A stretch of 51,834 nucleotides of DNA from Candidatus Gastranaerophilales bacterium (lineage in GTDB: Bacteria; Cyanobacteriota; Vampirovibrionia; Gastranaerophilales; Gastranaerophilaceae), in assembly GCA_944323145.1 (NCBI GenBank), contig CALURJ010000014.1:1-51834 (forward strand). Reading direction: 5' to 3'. The translations under genes were made by a program, and so were the position numbers. The notes beneath the pieces are model-generated. The model was not told the origin of the DNA. It saw nothing but the letters and a program-made list of their open reading frames with translations, and searched no databases. Shown here one piece after another: positions 13,139-19,245 of this stretch. The first letter of the stretch is position 1. The number at the start of each line of letters is the position of its first letter.

Positions 13139-14257
13139 TTAGAAAAATTTAACTGGTTTGACTATTTTTAAAGTACATTTACTACCTGAAGCAGCACTTG
13201 AACACTCAGAATGCTCTGATACTCCTGAACAATATGGAGTACTGCTGTTTATAAATCCTGATTTGCAAGCGCCTTCCTTAAATGAAACACTCTTTGATAG
13301 CCATTTAAGCTTTCTGCGTCCTGCATTATTTATATGTTCATACTGTACACTAGTCTGCAAGTATTCATTACTGTTTCCTCCCAGGGGGTTACCATCTACT
13401 GTATTAAAAACTGGAATTACCTGTCCGCTCAACGTAATGTAAAACGGAAATACATCTTCCCACAAGGTTGAACTTCCCTTGTCGCCATCAATATCGACGT
13501 AGACTTTATATCCATACTCACCTGTATCAATCTGTGCATTGTTTGGATTACTTGGAGTTATTGGTGGATTAACTGGCTGTTCCGGTTCAGGCTCAGGTTC
13601 AGGTTCAGGTTCAGGTGTTGGCTCAGGTTCCGGTTCAGGTGTTGGCTCAGGTTCTTCTACAGATGGCTTTTCAAGACATTCACACCTTTCTTCGTCAAAA
13701 TATACATTTTCACCGTTTTGAATTCTTATATTACAAAGTAGACTCTCTGTAGGATAACAAATAGGTTCTTCAGGTTCGGGAGCCGGTTCACATCTACAGT
13801 TCATAATATTATATACTTCATCAATAGCACAACCCGGGTAAGGAAATAACTGAAGACAAGTTGCAGGAGTTATCATTTCAGGGTTGTCAGGATATAAAGC
13901 AATTATAGCATCTTCGACGCTTTGTAGATCATCTAATACACATGAGCATCGTGAACCATCTGTTATTTTATATCCAGAACTGCAAGTTGTATACTTGTCA
14001 CAACTGATTGCTCCAAGATTTTTGGCATAAGCCTCCTGCGTAAATAAAGTATTAAACGGGGTAAGATAAGCATAATGCATTGCAGGTTTGGTGTGTTTGC
14101 TATACAATTTGGTTCCTTGAATTGTAACAGGAACTACAACTGCAATAATCAGCATGACAATAATGATTTCAGACAGAGTATAGGCGAAACGAAATGCTTT
14201 AGTGAAGTTTAAAGTGTTCCCCTTCCGGAGCTTAAGTAATTTTTTTAAATTTTTCAT
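13139..14257 (-). CDS. Pseudopilin-like surface protein with Pro-Glu linker
   Basis: The product is 372 residues from the ATG at 14257, which has an AAAGGAAAA ribosome binding site. An upstream in-frame ATG at 14365 would add 36 unrelated residues and run into the neighbouring gene. The N-terminus is a type IV prepilin signal: basic leader, then A/YTLSEIIIVMLIIAVVV with Glu at +5. Next come a cysteine-rich region (about ten Cys, residues 85-200), a linker of E-P/T-P repeats (about residues 203-230) and a C-terminal domain beginning DIDGDKGSSTLWEDVFPFYI. Type II secretion or pilus assembly would be needed to export it; no such cluster is adjacent. It is probably a minor pilin or displayed surface protein. 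Confidence 0.8.
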   Translation of the reverse strand: MKNLKKLLKLRKGNTLNFTKAFRFAYTLSEIIIVMLIIAVVVPVTIQGTKLYSKHTKPAMHYAYLTPFNTLFTQEAYAKNLGAISCDKYTTCSSGYKITDGSRCSCVLDDLQSVEDAIIALYPDNPEMITPATCLQLFPYPGCAIDEVYNIMNCRCEPAPEPEEPICYPTESLLCNIRIQNGENVYFDEERCECLEKPSVEEPEPTPEPEPEPTPEPEPEPEPEPEQPVNPPITPSNPNNAQIDTGEYGYKVYVDIDGDKGSSTLWEDVFPFYITLSGQVIPVFNTVDGNPLGGNSNEYLQTSVQYEHINNAGRRKLKWLSKSVSFKEGACKSGFINSSTPYCSGVSEHSECSSAASGSKCTLKIVKPVKFF

Positions 14258-14297
14258 ACTTTTCCTTTCTTTATAATTTGATAAAAGCATTATAAGT

Positions 14298-14921
14298 TTA
14301 TACAGGTGTATAATCGCAGTACACAAGGCTTGACCACTTTTCAAAATAACTGATTTGTGTTGCACTGCCTGATTTTATGTATATACGGCTGAGGGAGCTA
14401 TGCGGAATATTCAAAGCAAGACAAACAGCAGCTTTAATTATATCTTTATGGGTGACTATAATAACCCTGTTGCCGATATTTTCTTCAATTACACGATTTA
14501 ATGTCGTTTCAACACGATTTATAAAATCAGTTATGCTTTCGGCATCTTCAGGGGTTGCAATTTCTGGAGAGTTTATCAATCTTTCAAGCTTATCCGGACA
14601 ATTTTCATAAAGCTGCTCATAAGTCATACCGTTAAAACTGCCACATTTTCTCGGATGCAAGTCTTCTATAACCTTAAAATCCTGTTTATAAACCTTTGCA
14701 ACCATTTCTGCGCTTTGGCGTGAACGTACAGCAGGAGAAGAATATATTATACTGTTTTTAATGCCGCGGTGCTTTATAAATTCACAAATTTTTTCGATTT
14801 CTTCCTGCCCGGTTTCACTTAAAGGAGGGTAATTTTCCGAATCAGTTAACCTGTCATCCTCGCTATATATAGTTGCACCGTTGCATATAAAAGTTACTTT
14901 ACATTTTCTGTTAAAATACAT
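14298..14921 (-). CDS. Histidine phosphatase superfamily protein lacking the catalytic His
   Basis: This is a 207-residue protein of the phosphoglycerate-mutase-like fold. The motif that should read R-H-G reads Cys13-Asn14-Gly15 (TFICNGATIYS), so the phosphorylated histidine is absent. The rest of the fold is kept: PPLSETGQEE, SSPAVRSRQSAE with Arg66, and IIVTHKDIIKA with the second His158. As sequenced it should not form the phosphohistidine intermediate, so a binding or regulatory role is possible. The start has a GAGGT ribosome binding site and an upstream TATAAT box. It is not an obvious pseudogene because the frame is intact over normal length. Confidence 0.85.
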   Translation of the reverse strand: MYFNRKCKVTFICNGATIYSEDDRLTDSENYPPLSETGQEEIEKICEFIKHRGIKNSIIYSSPAVRSRQSAEMVAKVYKQDFKVIEDLHPRKCGSFNGMTYEQLYENCPDKLERLINSPEIATPEDAESITDFINRVETTLNRVIEENIGNRVIIVTHKDIIKAAVCLALNIPHSSLSRIYIKSGSATQISYFEKWSSLVYCDYTPV

Positions 14922-17294: not shown

Positions 17295-17316
17295 TTTTGT
17301 ATTCTGTTTTAAATAT

Positions 17317-17350
17317 AAAAAAGAGGAATTTATAAAAATTCCTCTTTTTT
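17317..17350. terminator. Bidirectional terminator between rpsG and the Hcp-like gene
   Basis: Perfect 15-bp arms (17317-17331 and 17336-17350; core AAGAGGAATTT) enclose a 4-nt loop and carry A-run and T-run ends. The minus-strand gene stops inside it at 17349, so it serves both convergent units. Confidence 0.9.
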
Positions 17351-18929
17351 ATTGTATTTTTTTTAAATCTATTTCAGGTTCTGAGATAGGGAAAATATCA
17401 TATAATTTATTAAATGAGCTAAGAACTGAAGGATTTATCAAAGTTGGCGGACAGTCTGATAAAAATATATTTTTTACACCTTCGTTTTTAAGATTTATAA
17501 TATTTGAAAAAGAGTTAATGTCACATTTAGTCAAAAAGAAGGCAAGCTTCTCTGAATTTAGAGGGATTTTTTCAAATATTTTTTGTAATACACCGTATAT
17601 TTGTGGATAGTCATTTGCAAGATTTATGAATAACACATTTTCAAGATGCGGATTATAGGAAAAACTTATTGCATAGCTTTTCTCGGGCATTGAATTAAAA
17701 AACTTTTTAAAATAGTCATTCATATTCATATCTAAATTAGAATGTCCTATTATAAATAAATTTTGATAATTATCAGAAATAATTTTGTCAAGAAAATTTG
17801 ATAAAATATTTTCATTTAACCCGACTTTTACAGGCTCCCTTTGCTGTCCTTTGGCAAAGCCTTTTGCCTGAAAAGCTGAATTTACAAGCGGTGTAAAATC
17901 GTTATCAATAATTTTAACGACTCCTTTCGGGGCAATATCATCTGTTGTAAACAATCGTCCTCTGTACAAATATTCAATATTTTGAGCCTCATTTTTTGTC
18001 AGAAGAATAGCCCCAGGGAATGTTGCGAAGTCAAGTATAGTATTAAACACCCCTGTTCCAAAATGCCCTTTCAAATTTTTGCATGATTTGAAATAAGGGA
18101 AAGCATGGGCTATTAAAAGATTTCCGTTTGTATATACATCAATATCCGTATCTTTAACAAATTCCAGCACATTTTTCAAATCTCTTAGATTAGATCCTGA
18201 AACCAGTATGGCTTTATTAGGGCTGGTAGACGTTGAAACAGTTTGTTCCTCTATAATCCCGTACTCTTCAAATTGGGCACGTTTTAACAGCTTTAAAAGT
18301 TCAATATCAATTTTAGATAGCACTTCTGTATATTTTTTTATTAAATCAGAATCAACTCTTGAAAAATTAAAAATATTTAATGCTTCTAAAACGTTATCTT
18401 CGGCATATTCACATGCGTAATCATACTCATAAAGACAAATAAGATTAACACAAACACTTTTCATAACGGAAGTTAATATTTCTGAGTTTGATTTTTGTTT
18501 TACGTTAAGTCTTTTGTATTTGTTTATAAACTCTCTGTCCCCGCGCTTTAAAATACTCGAAAGGCTAGTTTTTGAAGATAATTTTAATAAATTTTTTAAA
18601 TCGTGACATTGTTCTTCTTTATTTTTACACATCTGCAGATATTCTTTACGCAGTTCAGTTAAATTGGCATATTGCTCTGAAAAAAGATTTAATATTTGCG
18701 ACTCAGAAAAATCTTTAGCAGCATCAATTAAAGCTATTTGAGAAATCAAAGAACGTGTAATTCCCTCTTTTTGCGAACCAAAATCTTTCAATTTCAATAA
18801 ATAGTAAGCAATTTGACGAAGAAGAATTAACATAACTTCCTGCATGGAAGAAATTGCTGGCGAAACAGAACAGGCTCCTTTAGATACACAATCGTTGTAT
18901 TCATAGCTGTTTGAAGAGTTGTAAAACAT
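17349..18929 (-). CDS. Hybrid-cluster-protein (hydroxylamine reductase) homologue with lost metal ligands
   Basis: This 526-residue protein can be aligned by eye along its whole length with Hcp. The N-terminal Cys cluster region reads MFYNSSNS then CVSKGAC. A helical domain runs over residues about 150-225, then ILVSGSNLRDL, DVYTNGNLL, FPGAILLTKNEA, RLFTTDD and GVKNIFLSDCPPTLINP. In known Hcp the hybrid cluster is held by a His, Glu and four Cys. Here the matching residues are Ser246, Asn270, Glu314, Ser397, Tyr425 and Ala438. Of the N-terminal cluster cysteines only Cys14 and Cys20 remain. It is unlikely to bind a hybrid cluster or reduce hydroxylamine. A glutaredoxin gene lies 3 bp upstream. 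The intact frame and AGGGGGT ribosome binding site argue for a working protein with a new role. Confidence 0.8.
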   Translation of the reverse strand: MFYNSSNSYEYNDCVSKGACSVSPAISSMQEVMLILLRQIAYYLLKLKDFGSQKEGITRSLISQIALIDAAKDFSESQILNLFSEQYANLTELRKEYLQMCKNKEEQCHDLKNLLKLSSKTSLSSILKRGDREFINKYKRLNVKQKSNSEILTSVMKSVCVNLICLYEYDYACEYAEDNVLEALNIFNFSRVDSDLIKKYTEVLSKIDIELLKLLKRAQFEEYGIIEEQTVSTSTSPNKAILVSGSNLRDLKNVLEFVKDTDIDVYTNGNLLIAHAFPYFKSCKNLKGHFGTGVFNTILDFATFPGAILLTKNEAQNIEYLYRGRLFTTDDIAPKGVVKIIDNDFTPLVNSAFQAKGFAKGQQREPVKVGLNENILSNFLDKIISDNYQNLFIIGHSNLDMNMNDYFKKFFNSMPEKSYAISFSYNPHLENVLFINLANDYPQIYGVLQKIFEKIPLNSEKLAFFLTKCDINSFSNIINLKNEGVKNIFLSDCPPTLINPSVLSSFNKLYDIFPISEPEIDLKKIQ

Positions 18930-18932
18930 AAT

Positions 18933-19163
18933 TTACCCCCTGTCCTTAACATATTTAATTATATCTTCTGATTCGTACATACCATTGTTCTTTTCGGTGT
19001 CAAAAAGATAGGGAACCTGCTCGTAACCGCCAAGTTTCAAGAGTTCCTCTCTATTTTCTTTATCAGAAATATTTTTTTTATTATAGGCAATGTCATTTTC
19101 TTCAAAAAAGTCCATAACTTTTCTGCAATACGGACATGTTTCCAAAATATATAAATCAAGCAT
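18933..19163 (-). CDS. Glutaredoxin
   Basis: This 76-residue glutaredoxin starts MLDLYILETCPYCRKVMDFF with the dithiol active site Cys-Pro-Tyr-Cys. The glutathione/substrate-binding segment YEQVPYLF with its cis-proline, and the C-terminal YESEDIIKYVK helix, are also present. The ATG at 19163 follows AGAAGGAGA; the ATG eight codons upstream lacks a ribosome binding site and breaks the fold start. Upstream TATAAT lies about 25 nt before the ATG. It is the first gene of a two-gene operon with the Hcp-like protein, 3 bp away. Confidence 0.9.
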   Translation of the reverse strand: MLDLYILETCPYCRKVMDFFEENDIAYNKKNISDKENREELLKLGGYEQVPYLFDTEKNNGMYESEDIIKYVKDRG

Positions 19164-19245
19164 TAATGTATCTCCTTCTGCAAACATTATATAAGCTTTG
19201 ATTTAAATATAAATCGCCATATCAGCCGATAAAGAAATTATACAA

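Follow-up and report, generated by a model that had tools for sequence, protein, structure and literature searches.

The closest described relatives of the protein considered here are the hybrid-cluster proteins (Hcp; TIGR01703, PF03063; structures 1E1D from D. vulgaris and 7DE4 from E. coli), with which it has in common full-length homology and the fold, including the outer helical domain of classes I/II. Across Hcp classes I to III, the sets of ligands have been described as conserved (PMC10502027). Ni,Fe-CO dehydrogenases belong to the same fold superfamily, but are far more distant from our protein than Hcp is, both by Z-score and in sequence. In the searchable open-access literature, outside which most subscription journals lie, we found no paper linking Hcp with Melainabacteria or Gastranaerophilales or treating it as a pseudoenzyme, and no description of a protein of the cluster-less kind reported below. 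The Gastranaerophilales are gut bacteria related to cyanobacteria, and almost all of them carry such a ligand-less relative of Hcp.

The gene under study lies in an operon within the window, by which we mean the whole stretch of DNA analysed (51834 nucleotides from a Candidatus Gastranaerophilales bacterium), with the following features:

17349..18929, minus strand: cluster-less Hcp homologue, an open ORF of 526 amino acids with an ATG start
18933..19163, minus strand: CPYC glutaredoxin of a GST_N/Grx2-like subfamily, the first gene of the operon
19186..19213, minus strand: TTTATA-16-TATAAT, promoter-like but weakly supported, ahead of the 19163 start of the glutaredoxin gene
17315..17352, unstranded (reported on the plus strand by the tool): 17-pair stem with T/A runs

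As the sequence-only reading had described, an intact frame follows the CPYC glutaredoxin, with a gap of 3 bp after the end of the latter at 18933. The listed glutaredoxin ORF extends to an ATG at 19187, but relatives begin at the Met at 19163, so the start is probably at 19163, as had been proposed, and not at 19187. Promoter-like matches occur across the region at a chance-level count. The stem sits between this operon and the convergent rpsG, and is probably a two-way terminator shared by both. Elsewhere in the window (13139-14365, minus strand) we noted a gene for a prepilin-like protein, with a type IV pilin-like hydrophobic stretch and a Pro-Glu repeat linker, which adjoins a phosphoglycerate-mutase-like gene (14298-14921).

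The 526-residue product matched TIGR01703 over residues 5-525 with an E-value of 4.1e-57, yet at 193.9 bits it scored well below the equivalog cut-off of 360.8, and its score against NF003658 (190.7 bits) was similarly below the cut-off of 367; an ordinary Hcp copy from the same Gastranaerophilales family scored above both cut-offs, with 706 and 748 bits respectively. At the superfamily level, the product exceeded the gathering threshold of the Pfam Prismane family (PF03063; E = 8.6e-28, 97.7 bits against 27), and a profile–profile comparison with Hcp (hhalign) gave an E-value of 3e-106 over 526 columns. An AlphaFold2 model, the input of which included 58 relatives, had a mean pLDDT of 84.7 and a pTM of 0.86, with residues 1-24 unplaced (pLDDT < 50). 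Foldseek returned Hcp structures as the top solved matches of this model (E-values down to 2.8e-27), and superposition on D. vulgaris Hcp (1E1D) gave a Z-score of 31.6 over 500 residues at 3.5 Å; CO dehydrogenases were the next-best structural matches (Z ~16). These data bear out the full-length similarity to Hcp that had been noticed from the sequence. The product is thus a member of the Hcp/CO dehydrogenase fold superfamily, yet it lacks the ligands by which Hcp is defined.

Alignment with D. vulgaris Hcp placed Ser246 at the site of His244, Asn270 at Glu268, Glu314 at Cys312, Ser397 at Cys406, Tyr425 at Cys434, Ala438 at Cys459 and Asp470 at Glu494, so that, unlike Hcp, the product has none of the seven hybrid-cluster ligands; approximately 12 residues are also deleted ahead of the Cys459 site. 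The N-terminal cluster motif has two of its four cysteines, Cys15 and Cys21 being retained as C14 and C20, and Cys3 and Cys6 being replaced by Tyr and Ser (the Tyr being residue 3 of our protein). Many motifs of the surrounding pocket are kept. Among 86 full-length relatives, none of the seven ligands was retained in 59, one in 22 and two in five, and Cys3 and Cys6 were retained in none (0/86); in the multiple alignment, the ligand positions vary freely and the core motifs are conserved. Could this be an ordinary Hcp, a reductase of NO or hydroxylamine, with its ligands misaligned? Full-length homology and the shared fold would suit this explanation. However, three alignments, by phmmer to solved Hcp, by MAFFT with ordinary Hcp of the same family and by hhalign, agree on the ligand loss, and a scan of up to four columns around each ligand site, counting any Cys, His, Asp or Glu that more than half of the members share, found only C469, D470 and one His of the Hcp THGE motif. 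The scores far under the curated cut-offs, which the same-family ordinary copy passes, also argue against an ordinary Hcp. We therefore regard this explanation as highly improbable, and misalignment as a cause of hidden ligands is ruled out by the agreement of the three methods and the scan. Since these methods concur, the list given by the sequence-only reading (Ser246, Asn270, Glu314, Ser397, Tyr425 and Ala438) is correct, and the profile–profile alignment reproduced it exactly; the loss of two of the four N-terminal cysteines, also claimed there, holds in the same way.

A homologue (E ≤ 1e-5) was present in 141 of 146 genomes of the Candidatus Gastranaerophilales family, and nearly every listed match was open over its length. 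Ordinary Hcp, found in 56 of the 146, is thus less constant in the family than the cluster-less protein; the source genome has a single Hcp-like gene and no ordinary copy. In a tree that included ordinary Hcp of the same family and class, built by a quick method without bootstrap, the cluster-less proteins formed one side of a branch of length 1.82 with an SH-aLRT of 100, a well-supported clade on a long stem, which fits a single origin. Outside the family, the class and phylum matches that we fetched had only ordinary ligand motifs; one of these (L239) has ordinary N-terminal and middle motifs and is damaged downstream, and another (L243), an unrelated ORF, was left out. The cluster-less gene is under purifying selection, with a pN/pS of approximately 0.17 to the nearest relative (most pairs being saturated at synonymous sites) and an omega of 0.073 in the closest unsaturated pair. 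Loss of all the hybrid-cluster ligands might in itself have suggested a decaying pseudogene, but the occurrence of homologues across the family, nearly all open over their full length, and the selection values stand against this, and we consider it hardly conceivable; conservation and selection rule it out. The caveat raised earlier, that this copy alone might be decayed, likewise fails, as the gene is intact, under selection and common to relatives, with ligand loss family-wide (86/86).

The cluster-less proteins also carry cysteines of their own, and in the window these are encoded as follows:

17523..17525, minus strand: codon of C469, the residue preceding the Glu494-equivalent D470
17451..17453, minus strand: codon of C493, where Hcp has the Thr of its GPT motif
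18870..18890, minus strand: codons C14 to C20, the remaining half of the N-terminal [4Fe-4S] motif
18627..18629, minus strand: codon of C101, which is Cys in 76/86 members

C469 and C493 form a new pair, absent from ordinary Hcp, in which the C469 site is Tyr, Phe or Leu. Both are Cys in 81 of the 86 full-length members, both are lost in five and neither is ever found singly; in an alignment of 59 closer sequences they are invariant. On the tree, each undergoes three changes, which coincide as three joint losses, although with n=3 a sign test is not significant. The losses were seen in L049 and L050, where the neighbouring glutaredoxin is CPYS, and also in L074, L077 and L085. DSSP assignment on the model puts C469 and C493 just after the strands 462-466 and 487-490, with one helix joining them, and the residues at the sites of Cys406, Cys434 and Glu494 likewise follow strand ends in the model and the alignment. 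By sequence and predicted topology, the pair would thus be placed at the edge of the old cluster cavity, where former ligands sat, and we infer from the model that the two cysteines lie close together. C14 (74/86) and C20 (75/86) are mostly lost together and independently of C469/C493, and C101, a position at which some ordinary Hcp of the class likewise have Cys, is lost independently of both.

In this context, the sequence-only reading of a repurposed, metal-poor scaffold stands in part. The Hcp scaffold is indeed repurposed, intact, selected and linked to a glutaredoxin; ‘metal-poor’ and ‘stripped’ do not hold as stated, as C469/C493 have been gained, and the retention of C14, C20 and C101 in approximately 87% of members leaves ‘metal-poor’ unproven. 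Taken together, these cysteines point to a thiol site or a new metal site more than to an empty shell, and to judge from the sequences the family has thiols sufficient for either kind of site, dithiol or metal, or for the two at once. The main rival to the dithiol reading developed below is accordingly a new metal site, with a mononuclear metal or an Fe-S cluster of another kind, liganded by C14/C20 with C101 and/or by C469/C493 with a nearby Asp or His, with the glutaredoxin aiding its loading or repair. Some glutaredoxins handle Fe-S clusters, and besides the conserved cysteines the family commonly has H289 (Asn in ordinary Hcp) and H275, and usually D470 or another polar residue at the Glu494 position. 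However, C14/C20, C469/C493 and C101 are lost independently and so do not look like one site, and the N-terminus that would bear C14 and C20 is the part left unplaced in the model. In a class III Hcp, replacement of an N-terminal cluster ligand (C67Y) abolished the cluster and left the N-terminal region disordered (PMC10502027); since every member here lacks two of the four ligands, this argues against an ordinary N-terminal cluster, although not against other metals. We consider a new metal site a serious, although doubtful, alternative.

The window glutaredoxin is, like known small CPYC glutaredoxins (PF00462; Grx2/GST_N-like), above the Pfam cut-off (40.9 against 22.9 bits), although no NCBIfam glutaredoxin equivalog scored above its cut-off, and some relatives have CPYS. 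A glutaredoxin lies directly upstream on the same strand in 42 of the 87 cluster-less genes sampled; about half have no neighbouring glutaredoxin. By two genome surveys combined, the window's glutaredoxin subfamily occurs in 87 of the 146 genomes and adjoins the Hcp-like gene in 56. Much of this linkage is one syntenic locus, running from rpsL-rpsG to a UDP-GlcNAc 2-epimerase-like gene (in a set that includes some genomes twice). In a second lineage, the upstream gene encodes a glutaredoxin of a different, Grx3-like subfamily, and does so at several loci that are unrelated to one another; this speaks for a functional link and not for one inherited locus. All 42 upstream glutaredoxins retain the first active-site Cys and eight have Ser as the second, a pattern that fits a one-cysteine, glutathione-dependent reaction. 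By contrast, the ordinary Hcp copies examined in the family had no glutaredoxin beside them, and some of them (L051, L053, L057, L059 and L060) adjoin genes that by eye encode Rrf2- or CRP/FNR-like regulators, which would fit a response to nitrosative stress. In the source genome, both steps of glutathione synthesis appear to be encoded, by a glutamate-cysteine ligase-like gene (G000:C17:36789-37592, L237) and a glutathione synthase-like gene (G000:C1:190851-191372, L238), matches that are above the Pfam cut-offs, with the scored fragments below the NCBIfam equivalog cut-offs.

It might also be that the protein is a non-catalytic binding or regulatory one, in which the Hcp scaffold serves to sense or buffer a ligand or the redox state and the cysteines are mainly structural or regulatory. 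Ligand sites left free to vary amid conserved core motifs, and the intact gene in the three lineages that have lost C469/C493, can be read in this way; redox chemistry is instead suggested by the pocket motifs and the Cys pair, which most members strongly conserve, and by the repeated linkage with glutaredoxin, and we think the non-catalytic explanation unlikely.

Our preferred, if tentative, explanation, to which we would give somewhat less than an even chance, is that the Hcp fold has been re-purposed as a dithiol redox protein, with the glutaredoxin encoded beside it as reductant. In the ancestor of the Gastranaerophilales family, an Hcp that had diverged or been duplicated would have lost the hybrid-cluster ligands, together with half of the N-terminal motif, while keeping the fold and the surrounding pocket; it would have gained C469 and C493, each at the C-terminal end of one of two successive predicted strands, on the edge once occupied by the ligands. 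Most probably, the two thiols would then serve as a redox-active dithiol/disulfide within this cavity. Its target would be a small oxidised compound of sulfur or nitrogen, or it would be itself oxidised or glutathionylated, and glutaredoxin and glutathione would reduce it. The homology, the predicted fold, the lost ligands, the new Cys pair, the selection and the linkage are observed, whereas we infer the chemistry, that is, the redox activity, glutaredoxin as the reductant and the substrate. The Cys pair that is never single, the upstream glutaredoxin, the purifying selection, the ordinary Hcp copies without an adjacent glutaredoxin and the glutathione-synthesis genes all count for the dithiol reading; against it count the half of the genes that have no glutaredoxin neighbour, the part of the linkage owed to synteny at the rpsG locus, and C14, C20 and C101, which a dithiol alone leaves unexplained. 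Quite improbable is the stronger proposal that a metal-free dithiol in the former cavity constitutes a new enzyme class on the Hcp fold, carrying out reductive chemistry with electrons from glutaredoxin on, for example, S-nitrosothiols, persulfides or other oxidised N or S species; if true, an iron-dependent reaction would have been replaced by a thiol-dependent one. More broadly, a family-wide branch without hybrid-cluster ligands, with cysteines gained at the cavity and a recurrent link to glutaredoxin, suggests that an old metal enzyme was rebuilt into a thiol-based one and would show how such rebuilding can take place, and it means that, in a common gut lineage, nearly every member sampled carries a putative redox protein that falls below the cut-offs of curated enzyme models.

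Some further variation was seen at these loci. Cluster-less copies occur in tandem, three in a row in one genome and two in two others (L062, G011:C145; L063, G015:C41; L064, G051:C220), and the copies have diverged, including at C14/C20. A lineage of shorter cluster-less proteins of ~475-510 amino acids (L031-L047 and L219-L222) was also found, of which L031-L047 have no glutaredoxin neighbour, yet keep C469/C493. In addition, some cluster-less genes (L043 and L044) lie just downstream of a gene for a small protein that bears a conserved GMGCIGCAAARFENLEAGAKVHG-type motif; this protein presumably resembles the DUF1858 family, matched no NCBIfam model and is also encoded near the ordinary Hcp of L053.
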